This document shows, piece after piece, positions 23,838-38,442 of a stretch of DNA of 64,000 nt. Under the pieces are notes generated by a model that was not told the origin of the DNA, did not search any database, and saw only the letters and a program-made list of their open reading frames with translations. The first letter of the stretch is position 1, and every line of letters begins with the position of its first letter. Origin of the DNA: Planctomycetia bacterium. GTDB taxonomy: Bacteria > Planctomycetota > Planctomycetia > Gemmatales > HRBIN36. A program made the translations under genes and the position numbers. Location of the stretch: the NCBI GenBank assembly GCA_016795155.1, contig JAEUIE010000068.1:1-64000 (forward strand), read 5' to 3'.

Positions 23838-26123
23838 TCAATGCAAGCCGAGGAAATCCACTTTCCCCGAACTGATATTGTACAGGCCACCAATGATCTT
23901 GATTTTGCCCTGTTTTTCCAATTGACTCAGCGTGTTGCTTTCACGTTTGATATAGGCAATGGTATGTTCGACATTGCGTCGGGCTACCATGTCTATGAAG
24001 CTACGTTTTTCTTCAGGAGTCCAGGATTTGGCCATCTGATGTACATTCGTGTCTACGGATTTCTGCAGTTCACCCAGCAGCAGATCAAGATGTTCACACC
24101 CAGTGAATTCGGTTGGAGTCTTGCCTGAAAGAGTAAGATCAACAGCGGAACTGACTGCTCCGCAACTGGTATGCCCCATAACAAAGACCAGTTTGGCTCC
24201 GGCAACATGGCAGGCGAACTCCATGCTCCCCAGTACCTTTTCACGTGCAACGTTGCCGGCAATGCGAATGGTAAAAATATCTCCCACACCCAGATCAAAC
24301 ACAATCTCGGTAGGTGCGCGAGAATCAATACACCCCAGAATTACGGCCATCGGATATTGCTTTTCTGCAGTCTGTGAGATTTGTCGATGCAGATCCCGGC
24401 TAAGACGGTTGCCTGTGTAGAAACGCTCGTTTCCTTCCTTCAGAATTTCAATGACCTGATCAGGCGTCAGTTGTTCACGCAGTTCCTGGCTGCTGTAATC
24501 GACAAACTGAATTACATCCTTGATCTGGTATTTCTCCTGAAAACCAATCAGACTCACCTGTATTCCACGCGCAGGTCCGATCTCATTCTTCAACTCATGA
24601 ATCATTTCAAGAATATCGGGATCAACATAGTCAGTATCGCGTGCGTCAATCAGTAAATGCTTGACATCAGGAGCATCTTCCAGGATTCGACCTAGAACTG
24701 CCTTATTCAGAAAGCTGACTTGATTCGCCAGCCGGATGTGAAAGACATCGCCACTAATGTGTTTTTCAAGGACTTTCGTCATGGGACGTTTCAAATTGCT
24801 ACGAAGGATGAAACCAATACTGACAACCAGGCCAATCAAAATACCAATCAACAGATCAGTGAAAATGATTGCAACGATGGTGACAATGAAAGGGAGAAAC
24901 TGATACCTTCCCTGCTTCCACATACTTACGAAATTATGGGGATGTGCCAGTTTCCAGCCTGTCATGATGAGAATAGCAGCCAGGCAGGATAATGGAATCT
25001 GGTTGAGTAATCCTGGTAGAAACAAAACAAACACGAGCATATGTACGCCGTGCAGAATGGTAGAGAGCTTGGATCGCGCACCGGAATTGATGTTGACGGT
25101 GCTGCGAACTATGACGGAGGTTACAGGAATGCCACCGATAATTCCGCTGAGGAAATTGCCAACTCCCTGCGCGGTCAACTCTCTACTAGGTGGTGAACGT
25201 CGTTTCTGAGGATCAATTTTGTCGACCGCTTCCAGGTTCAACAATGTTTCCAAGGATGCAACAATGGCAATAGTGACTGCCGCTTTATAGATGCTGAATT
25301 GTGAAAGGAATGAAAAGTCTGGAAAGGTCAGCAATTTTGAGAGCTCATCCCAGGTTGTAATTACCGGGACTTGAACGAGATGGCTGAGTTCAGGTTTTGA
25401 ACAGATACTGATATCCCATGGTTCGCCCAAGTATTTGAGGAAATTGTGCAATGCACAGCCGCATATCACAACTACCAGAGGTGCAGGAATCAACGAGGAT
25501 TTCAATGATTTAATTCGATCCCAGCCCATCAGAATCAGCATGCTGACGATACCAACCAAGAGTGATCCTGAATGCAGATCAAAAACAGAATCGATCAGTT
25601 CGGTGAAGGTATTGCGATTATCTGGCTGGAAAAAACTCATTTCACCATCTGGATCAGGATCATGGCCTACCAGGTGAGGCAACTGTTTTAAGATTAGAAT
25701 AATGCCTATTGCGGTCAGCAATCCCTTAATGACACTGCTGGGAAAGAACTCAGCGATAAATCCACACTTAAACACACCGAACAGAAACTGAATAACGCCA
25801 GCTACCACCAAGGCTGCCAGAAATCCCTCAAATGAACCAATACCTGCTATTTGAGCAGATACCACTGCTGTCAATCCTGCTGCCGGACCTGCAACGCTGG
25901 TATGTGATTTGCTAATTAGCCCCACGACAATTCCGCCAACAATGCCCGCAATAATTCCAGCCATGAAAGGAGCATCAGAGGCTTTGGCCACACCCAGACA
26001 TAAAGGTAAGGCCACTAAAAATACCGTAATACTGGCAACAAAATCACGACTGATATGGGCAACAAGTGGGGTGCTTCTTTTCATCAATCGGTTTCCGGTT
26101 ATCGGAGCCTGAATAACTCCCAT
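23838..26123 (-). CDS. SulP-family anion transporter fused to a STAS-like domain and beta-carbonic anhydrase
   Basis: 761 residues. Residues about 15-450 are a SulP transporter with roughly 10-12 membrane spans. Residues about 455-560 form a STAS-like domain (VFHIRLANQVSFLNKA, HLLIDARDTDYVD). Residues about 565-760 form a beta-class carbonic anhydrase with zinc ligands in GCIDSRAPTE and GHTSCGAV (Cys, His, Cys) plus the Asp-Arg dyad. It probably imports bicarbonate (or another anion) and interconverts it with CO2 at the inner face. An ATG at 26084 would remove 13 residues; neither start has a strong ribosome binding site. Confidence 0.9.
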   Translation of the reverse strand: MGVIQAPITGNRLMKRSTPLVAHISRDFVASITVFLVALPLCLGVAKASDAPFMAGIIAGIVGGIVVGLISKSHTSVAGPAAGLTAVVSAQIAGIGSFEGFLAALVVAGVIQFLFGVFKCGFIAEFFPSSVIKGLLTAIGIILILKQLPHLVGHDPDPDGEMSFFQPDNRNTFTELIDSVFDLHSGSLLVGIVSMLILMGWDRIKSLKSSLIPAPLVVVICGCALHNFLKYLGEPWDISICSKPELSHLVQVPVITTWDELSKLLTFPDFSFLSQFSIYKAAVTIAIVASLETLLNLEAVDKIDPQKRRSPPSRELTAQGVGNFLSGIIGGIPVTSVIVRSTVNINSGARSKLSTILHGVHMLVFVLFLPGLLNQIPLSCLAAILIMTGWKLAHPHNFVSMWKQGRYQFLPFIVTIVAIIFTDLLIGILIGLVVSIGFILRSNLKRPMTKVLEKHISGDVFHIRLANQVSFLNKAVLGRILEDAPDVKHLLIDARDTDYVDPDILEMIHELKNEIGPARGIQVSLIGFQEKYQIKDVIQFVDYSSQELREQLTPDQVIEILKEGNERFYTGNRLSRDLHRQISQTAEKQYPMAVILGCIDSRAPTEIVFDLGVGDIFTIRIAGNVAREKVLGSMEFACHVAGAKLVFVMGHTSCGAVSSAVDLTLSGKTPTEFTGCEHLDLLLGELQKSVDTNVHQMAKSWTPEEKRSFIDMVARRNVEHTIAYIKRESNTLSQLEKQGKIKIIGGLYNISSGKVDFLGLH

Positions 26124-31946: not shown

Positions 31947-32543
31947 CTAAGCTGGTGCAGTTACGGACTCTGATCCCGTTACGCTGTCGGTGCGCACTAC
32001 CAGTTCATGATTGAATGGCTGTAGTGCCGTAATTAAGAATTGAATATGGTCATCGAGAGGAACTTGAAACTCCTCGGCACCACGTATGATATCATCACGA
32101 TTAACCTTGGCGGCAAATTGTTTGTTCTTCATTTTCTTTTTCACACTGCTGACCGTCATACCTTCAAAGCCTTCCGGCCTCATCAGGGCGCACGCGACGA
32201 GGAAACCGCATAATTCATCGCAGGCATAGAGAGCCTTCTCCATTGGTCTGACTCGTGGGCAGTCTGAAATATAATCAGCATGAGATTTAATGGCATAAAT
32301 TACTTCTTCAGGATATCCTCGTTCCTGCAGGATGTGTGAACCCTGAAGTGGATGATCTGGAGGATCAGGCCAACGCTCGTAGTCAAAGTCATGCAGAAGC
32401 CCCACAATTCCCCAGGTTTCCTCGTCGTCATTCAAATGACGAGCGTAGGCCCGCATGGCTATTTCCACAGCTCGCATGTGCCTTTGAAGAGAAGGGTTTT
32501 TAACGAATTCTTTGACCAATGCCCAGGAATCTTCCCGTTTCAT
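31947..32543 (-). CDS. HD-domain (HDIG-type) hydrolase
   Basis: 198 residues. An HD domain covers about 20-140: LQRHMRAVEIAMRAYARH, GLLHDFDYERWP (HD), HPLQGS (His) and IKSHADYIS (His), then CDELCGFL. This is the small HDIG/metal-dependent phosphohydrolase type. The substrate is probably a nucleotide or related phosphate ester, but it cannot be named. It is cytoplasmic. It is convergent with grpE (7 bases) and divergent from the oxidoreductase. Confidence 0.82.
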   Translation of the reverse strand: MKREDSWALVKEFVKNPSLQRHMRAVEIAMRAYARHLNDDEETWGIVGLLHDFDYERWPDPPDHPLQGSHILQERGYPEEVIYAIKSHADYISDCPRVRPMEKALYACDELCGFLVACALMRPEGFEGMTVSSVKKKMKNKQFAAKVNRDDIIRGAEEFQVPLDDHIQFLITALQPFNHELVVRTDSVTGSESVTAPA

Positions 32544-32616
32544 CTGCTTTTTCCATGCTATGCTAATGATTACTAGCGATTATCACCGGCATTCTCACGC
32601 CCAGCAAGGAGAATAC

Positions 32617-33960
32617 ATGAAAACGACCATGAATCGACGAACCTTTACAGGGGCAGTTGCCTCATTGACGGCACTCAGTGCCAGTCGAGTGTACGGAGCG
32701 AATCAGCAGGTTCGACTTGGTTTTATCGGGTGCGGTAATCGAGGGGATCAATTGCTTGATGCGTTTCTTGATACCACCAATGCCAGTTGTATTGCGTTTT
32801 GTGATCTGAATCAAAAGTACATCAAACATGCTGCAGGCAAGGTTCAAGGCATTATCGCTGAATACAAGGATTATCGGCAACTATTGGAAAACAAAGACAT
32901 CGATGGGGTTGTCATTTCAACCCCGGATCACTGGCATGCACTCCAGACCGTCGATTCTCTTCAGGCTGGCAAGCACGTTTATATCGAGAAGCCATTATCG
33001 CTCTGTGTGGCCGAAGGACGAGCCATGGTAGATGCTGCACATAAGGCAAAGAAAACGGTTCAGGTTGGTTTCCATCGACGTTCCTCCAACTTTTGCAATG
33101 AGGCAGTGCAATTGATACAGCGCAAGGAAATTGGTGATATTACCATGGTGAGGGCATTCCATACACAGAACGAGTATCCCATGGGAATTGGCAATCCAAC
33201 CGATGAAAAACCGCCAGTCGATCTGGATTGGGACAAATGGGTCGGTCCTGCACCCATGAAATCCTACAATCAGAATCGTACCTTCTACCGATTTCGTTGG
33301 TTCTACGATTATTCAGGTGGTCAGTTGACCAATATGGGCGCTCATTATCTGGACATGATCCACTGGGCACTGGGAGTCGAAGCACCACAATTTGTAACAG
33401 CTTTGGGTGGTAAACTGGTCATCAAGGATAACCGAGAAATTCCTGACACACTCGAAGTGGTTTACCAATACCCCGATACTCTGGTTACTTTCACGCAAGT
33501 TAATGCCAACGGGGCTCCGGGAACTTCACAACCAGGTGCAGATATTGAATTCCGGGGAACTAAAGGAACCCTGTATGTTCTGGGTAAAAGCTACATAGTG
33601 ATTCCCGAGACCAATATGGGGGTTCCATTCCCGGCACAGAATCCAATTGATCGCACTTTGATTGCCAAGTATCGTGGTTCTGGAAAAGCTCAAATTGGTG
33701 GAAAGAAAGTATCAGGCAATGCGGATACTATCTGGCATACCAGAAACTTCATCAGTTCAATTACCAACGACAAGAAACCTAATTGTCCCATCGAAGTTGG
33801 TCATCGATCTACGACGGCAGCATTATTGGGTAACATCGCCTTGAAAAAGCGGGCAACACTCGAATGGGATGCCAAGAATGAGCAGTTTGTCAACAATAAG
33901 GAAGCCAATCAGTTGCTGAAATACGAGTATCGAAGTCCGTATAAGTTTCCTACTTTGTAA
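32617..33960 (+). CDS. Tat-exported Gfo/Idh/MocA-family oxidoreductase
   Basis: 447 residues. The start at 32617 has AAGGAG upstream. MNRRTFTGAVASLTALSASR is a twin-arginine-type signal. The NAD(P)-binding Rossmann fold begins VRLGFIGCGNRGDQLL, with EKPLSLCVAEGRAM giving the catalytic-Lys motif (EKP). The C-terminal alpha/beta domain follows. These enzymes oxidise or reduce sugars and are numerous in planctomycetes, where they are usually exported with their cofactor. The sugar substrate cannot be inferred. Confidence 0.93.
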   Translation: MKTTMNRRTFTGAVASLTALSASRVYGANQQVRLGFIGCGNRGDQLLDAFLDTTNASCIAFCDLNQKYIKHAAGKVQGIIAEYKDYRQLLENKDIDGVVISTPDHWHALQTVDSLQAGKHVYIEKPLSLCVAEGRAMVDAAHKAKKTVQVGFHRRSSNFCNEAVQLIQRKEIGDITMVRAFHTQNEYPMGIGNPTDEKPPVDLDWDKWVGPAPMKSYNQNRTFYRFRWFYDYSGGQLTNMGAHYLDMIHWALGVEAPQFVTALGGKLVIKDNREIPDTLEVVYQYPDTLVTFTQVNANGAPGTSQPGADIEFRGTKGTLYVLGKSYIVIPETNMGVPFPAQNPIDRTLIAKYRGSGKAQIGGKKVSGNADTIWHTRNFISSITNDKKPNCPIEVGHRSTTAALLGNIALKKRATLEWDAKNEQFVNNKEANQLLKYEYRSPYKFPTL

Positions 33961-34018: not shown

Positions 34019-34175
34019 TGATATAACGCTGGTCAAATCGACGCATACCTAGTTGACATTTCCGAGATGAATCCGACTGACACCAAATCAGTAATTTTTG
34101 TTGCAGTAGCTTGGCAAATGCTGTTTGATGAAGCATTGAAGAATCATCATGAGTTACACCTCAGGAGTATTTGCC

Positions 34176-35501
34176 ATGTTAATCAAGAATTCTGTTCGGC
34201 TTTCCATTGAATCGTTAGAGGAAAGGCTGGTTTTTGATACCAGTTTGATTCAAGCACCTCAGCTTCTACCTGAACTTTACAGCTCAACCACATCGACTGT
34301 AACAAGTAATCTGGGTGCTGAGCAGGTACTTCGATGGAACTCACTTGCCCTGCAGGCAATTGCGATCAACCGTACCGCACCGCCGTTGGCAGCTCGAAAT
34401 CTGGCCATGATTTCGATTGCCATGTTTGATGCAGCCAATGGCATAGCACGGTCGGAACAGAGCTTTCTGGTAAAAGGCAGAGCTCCTCGAGGTACCAATA
34501 TGCATGCAGCTATCGGGTATGCAGCACATAAAATGCTGGTTGGATTGTTCCCGGCTCAGAAAGCTATCTTTGATACTGAATTGCGCGACATCATCGGTCA
34601 ATTACCACGAGGCTTAGGTGTACAGTTAGGAAAAGTCTGGGGAGCGGTGGTGGCTAATCGAGTATGGACTGCACGAAAAAATGATGGAGCAACTGACGTA
34701 GTAACCTACCAATCGTCGATGCTACCCGGACGCTGGCAACCAACTCCCCCAGCGTTTGTTCAGAATCCTCTGTTGCCTCAATGGCCGGGAGTTACGCCAT
34801 TTGCCATAACCAGCGGTGATCAGTTCCGTGCACCAGTTCCGCCAGCCTTAAACAGTCAGATTTATGCTGACAATCTGAATGAAGTAAAGTCACTGGGATC
34901 GGTAAACAGTCTTACAAGAACAGCCGATCAGACTCAAATTGCGAGATTCTGGGCAGCTGGGGCGGGCACTGTGACACCTCCTGGCATGTGGAATGTTTTT
35001 GCGCAGCAGCAAGCGCGTGATGCAAACTTGTCAACCGTAAAGACAGCAAAGCTTCTAGCAGTATTGAACGTAGCCATGGCTGATGCTGGCATTGCCTGTT
35101 GGGACAGTAAGTATGTCTTTGATTATTGGCGACCGGTTACCGCCATTCGCCAGGCAGACCTTGATGGCAACGATCTTACGCAACCTGATCCGGGCTGGAC
35201 ATCACTGATTGGAACACCGCCGTTCCCGAGTTATACTTCAGGGCACAGTACTTTTAGTGCTGCTGCAGCCGAAGTTTTCTCAGCTTTCTTTGGTGCTCAA
35301 ACGGCCTTTTCCGGATCTTCAGATGGATTGCCTGGCGTTGTACGCCATTGGAATAGCTTCCGCGATGCAGCAACTGAAGCTGGTGATAGCAGAATATTTG
35401 GAGGTATCCACTTCAGATTTGATTCAACCGAGGGTTTAAACTGTGGCAGGCAGGTAGGTATCGTAGCACTGCAGAAATTCGGAATGCAGCCTGCTGCCTG
35501 A
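34176..35501 (+). CDS. Vanadium-dependent haloperoxidase/PAP2-family protein, exported
   Basis: 441 residues. The start at 34176 has AGGAG 8 bases upstream; ATG 34149 adds nine residues. The N-terminal IESLEERLVF is the planctomycete LE-x-R motif. The C-terminal half carries the haloperoxidase/PAP2 pattern: SKYVFDYWRPVTAIR (Lys, Arg), FPSYTSGHSTFSAAAAEV (Ser-Gly-His) and GDSRIFGGIHFRFDSTEG (Arg, His). These residues bind vanadate or phosphate. It may halogenate or act as a phosphatase outside the cytoplasm; the activity is not certain. Confidence 0.85.
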   Translation: MLIKNSVRLSIESLEERLVFDTSLIQAPQLLPELYSSTTSTVTSNLGAEQVLRWNSLALQAIAINRTAPPLAARNLAMISIAMFDAANGIARSEQSFLVKGRAPRGTNMHAAIGYAAHKMLVGLFPAQKAIFDTELRDIIGQLPRGLGVQLGKVWGAVVANRVWTARKNDGATDVVTYQSSMLPGRWQPTPPAFVQNPLLPQWPGVTPFAITSGDQFRAPVPPALNSQIYADNLNEVKSLGSVNSLTRTADQTQIARFWAAGAGTVTPPGMWNVFAQQQARDANLSTVKTAKLLAVLNVAMADAGIACWDSKYVFDYWRPVTAIRQADLDGNDLTQPDPGWTSLIGTPPFPSYTSGHSTFSAAAAEVFSAFFGAQTAFSGSSDGLPGVVRHWNSFRDAATEAGDSRIFGGIHFRFDSTEGLNCGRQVGIVALQKFGMQPAA

Positions 35502-35569: not shown

Positions 35570-36268
35570 TTACTTGATGCTGCTGATCTTGAAGTTGGAT
35601 AATTGCAGTTCTCGAGCATCAACTTCATTCGTGACCGTCACCACGCGGATCACCTTCGGCAAATCCAATCCCTGGTGGCGAATCCAGTTTTGATTGTGTG
35701 CTTCAGACCTCTCCAGCGATCCATCTTGGGCCCAATATTGAACTACAAAGGAAGTTGGCAAAAACTTACCTTCCTCATTCCTGCCGTTCTCCTGAACAAT
35801 GATGCTGAATTTCCCATCACCCTGCTTGCGATTGACTTCCATGATCTGGTTATCACGAATGCGGTAACTGGAATGCATCTCATCGTTCAGAATGTTCACC
35901 AGCCGACCCAGTGGATGAGAGGTAATGCCGTCAGCAAAGGCACAGGGAGTCTTTCTGGGGATTGCAGGTTGCAAACGATGTGTAATGGTTGAAGTAAGAA
36001 CTTTTTTGACCCAGACTAATGGTTGTCCCTGAATGTCTGTTATTGTCACAACACCCTTGCTGTCTACTTGAACTGTTCCCCGATACTGCTTCTGATTCAC
36101 ATTCAGCTGAATTTCGGCAGTAAATCCTGGAAAATTCTCCATGACTGCTCGTGTTGCACGAGCGTTTGATAACATTTCAGAAGCTTCAGGCTGCTCAACA
36201 GGCTTCTTCACGTTATCGCTTACAATACAGAGTGTTGCACACACAAACGAAACCAACATGGTGGACAT
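35570..36268 (-). CDS. DUF3386-family exported protein
   Basis: 232 residues, with a short hydrophobic N-terminal signal (MSTMLVSFVCATLCIVSD), GGAG six bases before the ATG. The body matches DUF3386 as found in cyanobacteria and planctomycetes: ARATRAVMENFPGFTAEIQL, then GTVQVDSKGVVTI, and a later HPLGRLVNIL. Mostly beta structure is expected. No enzyme motif is known for this family. A 158-base gap without visible signals separates it from the exported DapA-like gene upstream. Confidence 0.75.
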   Translation of the reverse strand: MSTMLVSFVCATLCIVSDNVKKPVEQPEASEMLSNARATRAVMENFPGFTAEIQLNVNQKQYRGTVQVDSKGVVTITDIQGQPLVWVKKVLTSTITHRLQPAIPRKTPCAFADGITSHPLGRLVNILNDEMHSSYRIRDNQIMEVNRKQGDGKFSIIVQENGRNEEGKFLPTSFVVQYWAQDGSLERSEAHNQNWIRHQGLDLPKVIRVVTVTNEVDARELQLSNFKISSIK

Positions 36269-36426: not shown

Positions 36427-37503
36427 TTATTGCTGGCTGAGTTTATTTACGGTTGAATTCACGATATGTCGATCCCAGGCAGAAAGTTGAGGTAGATCAG
36501 GTTTAACAATTGAATTCATGGGAAAACCCAAGCGATGAAGGGTTGCCTTGAGTCTCGCTTGTGAAGTGTCGCGTCCCAGCCTTTGTGGTAGTTTCAAATC
36601 CTGTGCGGTCATGGTTACCATTCTTGCACTGTTTGCTGTGATGATGCCACCCTTCAGCAACGGCGCCAGTATAAACAGATCACGTTGCTGAGCGCGAGCG
36701 TCTCGCCGTGCGCCAGTCTCGTATGCAGTTTCAAAAGCAAGAACGGTATCGACAGGCAGAATAGCGGCTTCGGGACACATGGCACCATGTCCACCGATGG
36801 CCTGAAACTGAGTTAAGTTTAGCGCAGTTCCACTGAGGAATACTTTTCCAAGGCCCGTTGTGCCACTGATATGTTTCTGTACTTCCCGCAGATCGAGAGT
36901 GGATTCCTTGGCACCGATGACATTGTCTAATGACAGAATCTGAATGACTTCATCGGCCTTCAACGGTCGATCGACACTTCCAGGCATGTGATAATAGAAA
37001 ACTGGCAATTCGTGTGCTTGAGCCAGCATTTGGTAGAAGCCCAGGATATCGCAAAAAGGCGTTCGAGCAGGTCCGGTATACTTGACCAATACAGCGCTGG
37101 CACCCAGATTCTTGGCCTGCTTCAATTGATCAAGTGCGGAAAAGATATCACTGGAATGTATTCCTACGACTACGGGAACTTTTCCTTGTACTACGGCAAC
37201 GGCAGTCGATATAACCTGTGCACGTTCCTCATGACTGGCATACATACCTTCGCCAAGCGTGCCCAGTACCAGCAATCCGTTTACTCGACCAAAGAGCTGA
37301 TATTTGATTTGACGAGCTAGGGCTTCAGTATCAACCCCACAACCAGTGCAATTCCAGGGAGTTAAAACCGTGGGGTAAATACCCGACCAGGCAGGACGGC
37401 AGCATGCTAGTGGAGCTTTGTTAACTGGTGGGCACAGCAGATGATCCTGAGCCTGTAAGCTGCATGCAAAGATCAACAACAGAGTCAAACAGTAGCGAAT
37501 CAT
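36427..37503 (-). CDS. Exported DapA/NanA-family (class I aldolase) protein
   Basis: 358 residues. The start at 37503 has GGGAG seven bases upstream. Residues 1-18 are a signal peptide; Cys14 within IFAC could also be a lipobox. The TIM barrel (from about 40) has GIYPTVLTPW, GTLGEGMYAS (family GTTGE motif with Glu85), VFYYHMP (catalytic Tyr) and the Schiff-base Lys199 in IGAKEST. Cysteines cluster at the N-terminus (CC at 34-35 and CxxC at 52-55), consistent with an oxidising compartment. It probably cleaves or condenses a 2-oxo acid, but dihydrodipicolinate synthesis outside the cytoplasm is unlikely. Confidence 0.87.
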   Translation of the reverse strand: MIRYCLTLLLIFACSLQAQDHLLCPPVNKAPLACCRPAWSGIYPTVLTPWNCTGCGVDTEALARQIKYQLFGRVNGLLVLGTLGEGMYASHEERAQVISTAVAVVQGKVPVVVGIHSSDIFSALDQLKQAKNLGASAVLVKYTGPARTPFCDILGFYQMLAQAHELPVFYYHMPGSVDRPLKADEVIQILSLDNVIGAKESTLDLREVQKHISGTTGLGKVFLSGTALNLTQFQAIGGHGAMCPEAAILPVDTVLAFETAYETGARRDARAQQRDLFILAPLLKGGIITANSARMVTMTAQDLKLPQRLGRDTSQARLKATLHRLGFPMNSIVKPDLPQLSAWDRHIVNSTVNKLSQQ

Positions 37504-37656
37504 GATGCAACTCCCGCGGAAAGAGCATCCGCTATCGCATCACTCGGCAAAACCTGCCTGTAAAGTATGGTCTGAATGATAGTTGATTGGCAACTAGACG
37601 TCACATAGCCCTAATGTGCCATAAAAACGTAATAATCTGCATTCGAAATAGAATGT

Positions 37657-38442
37657 TTACGCAACAGGCCGGCCCATTGCTTCCATCAGCATTTTCATGT
37701 CATCCCAAACATCTTTCTTCGCGTTGGGATTCCGTAACAGATAAGCTGGGTGATATGTGGCAACTACTTTGATGCCATCCACCTGATGAATCTGCTTCCG
37801 CATTTTGCCAATGCTGATCGTGGTATTCAAAATGGTCTGAGCTGCTACCAGGCCGAGACAGCAGATAAACTTTGGCTGAATCAACTGAATTTGTCGATCA
37901 AGAAACCCTCGGCAATGTGATACCTCATCAGCCAGCGGTTGGCGATTTCCAGGGGGACGGCACTTCAAGACGTTGGCAATGTAGATTTCTTCTCTTTTCA
38001 ACTTACATGCTGCTATGATTTTATTCAGCAGTTGTCCTGCAGCGCCGACAAACGGCTCACCTGCCTTGTCTTCATCGGCTCCTGGTGCTTCGCCGATGAA
38101 CAGTAACTCTGTGTCAACGTTTCCCACACCAAAGACGGTACGTGTTCGATTACGAACCAATTCAGTGCATCGCGTACAGGGTTGCACTTCCTGCTGGTCA
38201 ATGAGATTCAGTTGATGTCGTTTATGATCTGTAGAGTATGCTTCAGTGGTGCTGTGAGTGGCTTTCTGCATTGAAGTTGCGGGAGAAGACGCGTTTCCTG
38301 GCGAGTGGACAACAACTGGCTTCTCCAGACGTGATACAACGGTTGGTACAATGTTATCTGAAGAGGGAAGAAATGAGACTCCTCCTGCCTGCAGACTGCT
38401 GACGTGCTGCAATGCCATACGTGCCAAATCAGCACCTGTCAT
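37657..38442 (-). CDS. Uracil-DNA glycosylase, family 4 (Fe-S)
   Basis: 261 residues. The N-terminal ~80 residues are poorly conserved. The catalytic domain has [22 protein letters not shown] (motif A), [14 protein letters not shown]-rich [10 protein letters not shown] and motif B HPAYLLRN. Cysteines in PCTRC, KCRPP and SHCRG fit the 4Fe-4S cluster of family 4. It removes uracil from DNA to start base-excision repair. It has AAAGGGG before the ATG and is divergent from the glycosyltransferase. Confidence 0.93.

Follow-up and report, generated by a model that had tools for sequence, protein, structure and literature searches.

Introduction

Why would a protein of the DHDPS/NAL family, whose members are typically cytoplasmic, seem to begin with a signal peptide? 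The question is raised by a gene in a 64,000-nucleotide stretch of contig JAEUIE010000068.1 (hereafter, the window) from a Gemmatales planctomycete. The answer favored here, to which we give a probability of roughly 0.55, is that its product would leave the cytoplasm by the Sec route and work in the periplasm as a class I, pyruvate-type lyase or aldolase, most likely on a 4-hydroxy-2-oxo acid, and that it belongs to a DHDPS/NAL subfamily of Gemmatales and their kin. The features on which the argument draws are collected in Table 1.

TABLE 1. Features of the gene and its predicted product, in window coordinates.
Feature	Position	Strand	Basis or remark
CDS, predicted exported DHDPS/NAL-superfamily protein, 358 aa	36427..37503	(-)	ORF and PF00701 match
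Shine-Dalgarno-like GGGAG, 7-base spacer to ATG	37511..37515	(-)	Sequence
Signal peptide region, residues 1-18	37450..37503	(-)	Candidate cleavage sites follow residues 15 and 18
CC (C34-C35)	37399..37404	(-)	As a pair, not conserved across the clade
CxxC (C52-T-G-C55)	37339..37350	(-)	C52 in 6/7, shifted by one residue in L071; C55 confined to the window protein
GTLGEG, the GxxGE carboxylate-binding motif	37246..37263	(-)	Thr82 = E. coli DapA Thr44; Leu83 replaces Thr45
Tyr171, DapA Tyr133 equivalent	36991..36993	(-)	Alignment
Lys199, Schiff-base Lys, with Ser201 two residues on	36907..36909	(-)	Alignment
Cys243, after strand 8 (GAMCPE)	36775..36777	(-)	In 7/7 clade members

An Intact Schiff-Base Core

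The family assignment made in the original prediction, a DapA/NanA-type barrel, holds: the product scores 102.7 bits against PF00701 (cut-off, 22.1), with the barrel beginning at about residue 40, and it was aligned by sequence to DapA structures, DapA proteins being its best sequence matches. Foldseek, queried with an AlphaFold model, also puts DapA chains at the top; the matches listed have rmsd above 10 Å and TM scores of 0.51-0.58 by query length, and both models that were built, from four sequences each, are weak (mean pLDDT 67.3 and 68.8), a search of viral contigs having found no sequences to deepen the alignment. The catalytic residues had been called intact, and so they are: Lys199 and Tyr171 align with the Schiff-base Lys and the YxxP Tyr present in all 72 aligned family rows, the window protein included. 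The GxxGE motif is equally invariant and has Thr or Ser at its first x in 72/72 rows. Within the seven-member clade described below, this carboxylate loop reads GTLGEG, GTIGEG, GTMGEG, or GSVGEG; its second x is Leu, Ile, Met, or Val, and not the Asn of the HOGA type.

A Changed Pocket

If the core is that of the family, which substrate does the pocket fit? E. coli DHDPS, according to the accessible text of PMC3188589, uses Thr44, Thr45, Tyr107, Tyr133, Lys161, and Arg138. In our alignment Thr45, Tyr107, and Arg138 have no counterpart in the window protein: Leu83 occupies the Thr45 position, the stretch aligned to Tyr107 contains no Tyr and none is evident across the clade, and the Arg138 position is Ser in the window protein and Gln or Asp in its orthologs. 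Two residues past the catalytic Lys, Ser is found in all seven clade rows and in L072, the sister of the clade; this position is Ala in each of the 32 rows that keep Arg138, and of the 32 rows that remain 31 have Ser and one has Thr. The same source, again in its accessible text, gives Ala163 here for E. coli DapA and Ser198 for human HOGA, a residue that a docked model and mutants place near the 4-hydroxyl of 4-hydroxy-2-oxoglutarate. Since Ser is common at this position in other non-DapA rows, it excludes DapA and does not name the substrate. The NCBIfam dapA model (TIGR00674) scores 104.9, below its cut-off of 206.15. Three residues are the clade's own: His116, Lys141, and Glu245 occur in 7/7 clade rows and in 0/65 others and, from their places near the strand ends, may line the pocket.

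The original prediction had proposed a periplasmic 2-oxo acid sugar derivative as the substrate. An exported N-acetylneuraminate or Kdn/Kdo-type lyase, working in a periplasmic sugar-acid pathway, would agree with the superfamily and with the Ser two residues past the Lys, and L072 is separated by a single gene position from a BNR_2 (sialidase-like) gene in its genome, G433. The substrate contacts, however, point elsewhere: NAL Asp191 and Glu192, which are sugar-chain contacts in the available portion of PMC3014015, align with Ala227 and Leu228 (via L004, a NanA-like protein of the same genome). The scores do the same, the nanA model reaching 36.3 bits (cut-off, 382) and PRK04147 55.4 (cut-off, 281), with nanA also well behind the DapA and HpaI-type models. 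The residue that corresponds to NAL Ser208 is uncertain, since the alignment puts Ala241 there but has a gap close by. L072, for its part, lacks the clade-specific His116, Lys141, and Glu245. Finally, DapA is encoded elsewhere in the genome (L001, 361.7 bits against the cut-off of 206.15), and L004, whose best PDB match is NAL (5afd, 228.6 bits) and which falls under the NCBIfam nanA cut-off, has no signal. The changed DapA and NAL residues and these separate genes together mark the window protein as neither DapA nor NanA; given L001 and L004, its role appears not to be a housekeeping one. Nothing thus links the protein to sialic-acid chemistry, and we regard an exported sugar-acid lyase as quite unlikely; a 2-oxo acid sugar derivative in the wider sense may yet be its periplasmic substrate.

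Has the protein ceased to be an aldolase altogether? As an exported protein it might serve in binding or as a structural component, or it might catalyze a different Schiff-base reaction, for example a dehydration or a deamination. The loss of DapA Thr45, Tyr107, and Arg138 and the appearance of several new strand-end residues would suit such a change, and the superfamily includes dehydratases (PMC13398020, in the part of its text available), which are also among the Foldseek-matched structures. Yet all seven members and L072 retain the Lys, the Tyr, the Thr/Ser, and GxxGE, which would be unexpected had a dead enzyme drifted; this conservation speaks against a dead enzyme only, not against another Schiff-base reaction. 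We hold the loss of aldolase function to be doubtful, if worth keeping in view, and prefer a lyase: Lys, Tyr, GxxGE, and the Ser that replaces the Ala of DapA together point to a periplasmic enzyme for a 4-hydroxy-2-oxo acid.

Four known enzymes come closest. With DapA (Thermotoga maritima 1o5k / 3pb2) the window protein shares the TIM barrel, the Schiff-base Lys, equivalents of Tyr133 and Thr44, and the GxxGE loop, and it differs in its predicted signal peptide, in the three missing residues, and in the Ser after the Lys. With NanA it shares the superfamily and core chemistry, without the sugar-chain contacts and far under the nanA cut-off. Human HOGA (4-hydroxy-2-oxoglutarate aldolase, 3s5o) also has the Lys, the Tyr, a hydroxyl at the first x of GxxGE, and Ser two residues past the Lys, and likewise lacks Arg138; its Asn78 is replaced by an aliphatic residue here, and the sequence match is distant (profile, 97.8 bits). 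YagE, a probable 2-keto-3-deoxy-galactonate aldolase (2v8z), was aligned over profile positions 39-339 of 359 at 118.1 bits, a likeness of the alignment as a whole; we know of no export signal in it. A secreted Trichomonas lyase was considered as a precedent and dropped, since the portion of text available does not say that it is secreted.

A Predicted Export Signal

The N-terminus of the window protein consists of one Arg followed by 16 uncharged residues, with a best 12-residue mean hydropathy of 2.63, in agreement with the signal peptide originally called. As scored by hydropathy and charge, the signal is short, with a single Arg and without a perfect AxA; the candidate cleavage sites are A-C-S and L-Q-A. 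By the same measures, 7/7 clade members have a signal-like N-terminus, which takes the signal beyond chance. The four other PF00701 genes of the genome have no such N-terminus, and in the non-clade rows compared, where upstream sequence sufficed, the hydropathy value is at most 1.32; the exception, L054 (2.32), has its hydrophobic stretch ahead of a likelier ATG.

Could the segment be a membrane anchor, or the product of a misassigned start, so that the enzyme acts on the cytoplasmic face of the membrane or within the cytoplasm? In L072 the N-terminal part is longer and includes an internal hydrophobic stretch, a potential anchor, and in three orthologs (L007, L038, and L071) a further candidate start codon lies closer to the barrel, so that their starts depend on the hydrophobic segment itself. 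The original suggestion to see where close homologs begin is therefore answered in part: the orthologs' N-termini are signal-like, and in these three a later start is possible. All three, however, have AxA-type sites after the hydrophobic run. In the window gene, moreover, GGGAG stands 7 bases ahead of the ATG at 37503, a good ribosome site; the only other ATG, GTG, or TTG codons within the first 50 are TTGs at residues 6, 9, and 10, and past residue 10 no start codon occurs before the barrel. With this ribosome site, and with no alternative nearer the barrel, the assigned start looks sound. In GC content the gene (48.9%) differs little from the window (48.2%). An anchor or a wrong start thus seems very improbable, and the window protein is apparently Sec-exported and periplasmic. 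A lipoprotein was also considered and rejected: no Cys is conserved at C14 across the clade, and I-F-A-C14 makes a poor lipobox. No exported bacterial member of the DHDPS/NAL family was found in the open-access literature searched, where a report may nevertheless exist.

A Shared Pair of Cysteines

The original prediction also drew attention to a cluster of cysteines. Its elements, CC at 34-35 and CxxC at 52-55, are present, within a total set at residues 5, 14, 24, 34, 35, 52, 55, 151, and 243, and the CxxC as a family feature has to be given up, because C55 is confined to the window protein. What is shared instead is C52 together with C243, the only cysteines common to all six members of alignment A2 (the window protein and five orthologs). 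In L071 the first is displaced by one residue (LPWAECG for TPWNCTG) and the second is in place; L072 has neither. Among the 65 non-clade rows, Cys occurs at position 52 in none and at position 243 in five. The CxxC is thus a peculiarity of the window copy and the C52/C243 pair the shared feature. Cysteines are also more frequent in the compared core of the clade (mean, 6.4) than in that of 64 others (3.5), although the window protein counts only three there, because C55 lies in an insertion and the N-terminal cysteines fall outside the core.

By strand order, C52 is in the loop after strand 1 and C243 follows strand 8. These loops would be adjacent in a TIM barrel, which makes a disulfide plausible; the adjacency is drawn from strand order and the fold, the AlphaFold models being too weak for a C52-C243 distance. 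The machinery for making such bonds was mostly not found in the genomes searched, which are drafts and not all complete: VKOR turned up in none of nine, Thioredoxin_4 in none of seven, and DsbB in four of seven, and the window's own genome yielded none of the three. This weakens the idea, and a C52-C243 disulfide is best called possible. A bolder proposal, in which these residues of the β1 and β8 loops redox-switch a periplasmic class I aldolase at its catalytic rim, giving an extracytoplasmic, thiol-controlled pyruvate lyase of one planctomycete order, is a long shot.

A Clade of Gemmatales and Their Kin

The source genome (5.28 Mb, five PF00701 genes) has Gemmatales planctomycetes as its near relatives, and all six orthologs come from Gemmatales or kin. 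They are 46-53% identical to the window protein, a range spanned by the five in alignment A2; L071 is 47% identical over 331 aligned residues. In a 72-row tree the window protein groups with L007, L009, L036, L037, L038, and L071 at 100/99; L072 is sister to these seven at 100/95, and a group that includes the own-genome paralog L003 joins next at 98/92. The phylogeny of exported DapA-like proteins that had been suggested therefore returns a single clade, from rows that are best matches given as loci and an uneven sample of the family, with L071 and L072 on long branches and L071 deviating in composition. One ortholog, that of KatS3mg105 (L038:5941-7152), departs from the others in its last 65 or so residues, a C-terminal tail that may reflect a frameshift.

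How far does the subfamily extend? Among 41 near genomes, a close relative (E <1e-95) occurs in the own genome and in four of the six members of its taxonomic family, the other matches listed being 19-32% identical. A scan of a genome collection gave three loci, two labeled Gemmatales and one from an uncultured bacterium. In a class sample of 397 genomes, eight have matches at E 1e-30 or better. Besides the own genome and the four family members, these are a pair from a second family of the order, represented by L071 and by L070 (a match to L038), and G433, a distant one (L072, 32%). A phylum sample of 392 genomes gave, besides the own, three matches of 29-32% identity at 1e-25 or better; with a six-sequence profile, 155/392 of these genomes have a family match at 1e-30, the best of the matches listed outside the own gene reaching 144 bits, where the window protein scores 592. 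So far, then, the subfamily appears confined to Gemmatales planctomycetes and kin; as the pattern scan reaches close relatives only and the phylum sample is thin in the order, its true spread may be wider.

Neighborhood

The flanking genes encode a DUF3386 protein (35570-36268) and a family 4 uracil-DNA glycosylase (37657-38442), neither of which was found near the orthologs within the stretches compared. An operon logic was sought and rejected: the neighborhoods share almost nothing, except in the two closest genomes (L043, L044). The other shared neighbor family, is represented in the window by a Gfo/Idh/MocA-type oxidoreductase with a signal-like N-terminus (32512-33960); in L043 and L044 another of this type, 34% identical, lies some 5 kb away from the ortholog, which at such identity and distance is taken as chance. 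The gene of the DUF3386 protein (84.6 bits), whose N-terminus is hydrophobic, shares the strand and follows 158 bases downstream. Farther along, the product of 34149-35501 is assigned to the PAP2 superfamily (39.4 bits), matches vanadium haloperoxidase weakly and below the cut-off, and has an N-terminal SLEERLVFD-type motif resembling that of planctomycete surface proteins. By eye, the ORF at 23838-26123 resembles a fusion of a sulfate-permease-type transporter with a carbonic-anhydrase-like domain.

Redox-type genes adjoin two orthologs: SCO1/SenC (L038:5213-5788) directly upstream in KatS3mg105, and an AhpC-TSA/redoxin gene with a Cu2_monoox_C-like part (L073:9451-12030) in G516. These were picked out post hoc, from genomes with 19 and 21 AhpC-TSA matches, respectively; the two genes flanking the window gene are of other families, and one neighbor each was scanned in L042 and L043. 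In G433 (L074:8625-12011), L072 is followed by a cysteine-desulfurase-like ORF (by eye) and then by the BNR_2 ORF, and it lies beside ORFs resembling, by eye, ftsW, murG, and other cell-wall genes.

A Periplasmic Lyase?

How might the favored lyase work? A 4-hydroxy-2-oxo acid would be bound through Lys199 as a Schiff base, with its carboxylate held by the backbone of the GxxGE loop; protons would be relayed via Tyr171 and Thr82, and Ser201 would touch the 4-hydroxyl. Cleavage would yield pyruvate and an aldehyde, or the reaction would run in reverse; either way it would do without a cofactor, in keeping with a periplasmic setting. The clade-only His116, Lys141, and Glu245 may recognize the remainder of the substrate, and C52 and C243 may clamp the β1 and β8 loops as a disulfide.

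Its sequences show a genuine and conserved branch of a known enzyme superfamily, one that bears a signal, keeps the Schiff-base core intact, and has a changed pocket; it is probably a new periplasmic branch of the DHDPS/NAL family. If export and activity are true, a typically cytoplasmic C-C lyase would have moved into the planctomycete periplasm, as a subfamily with new pocket residues.
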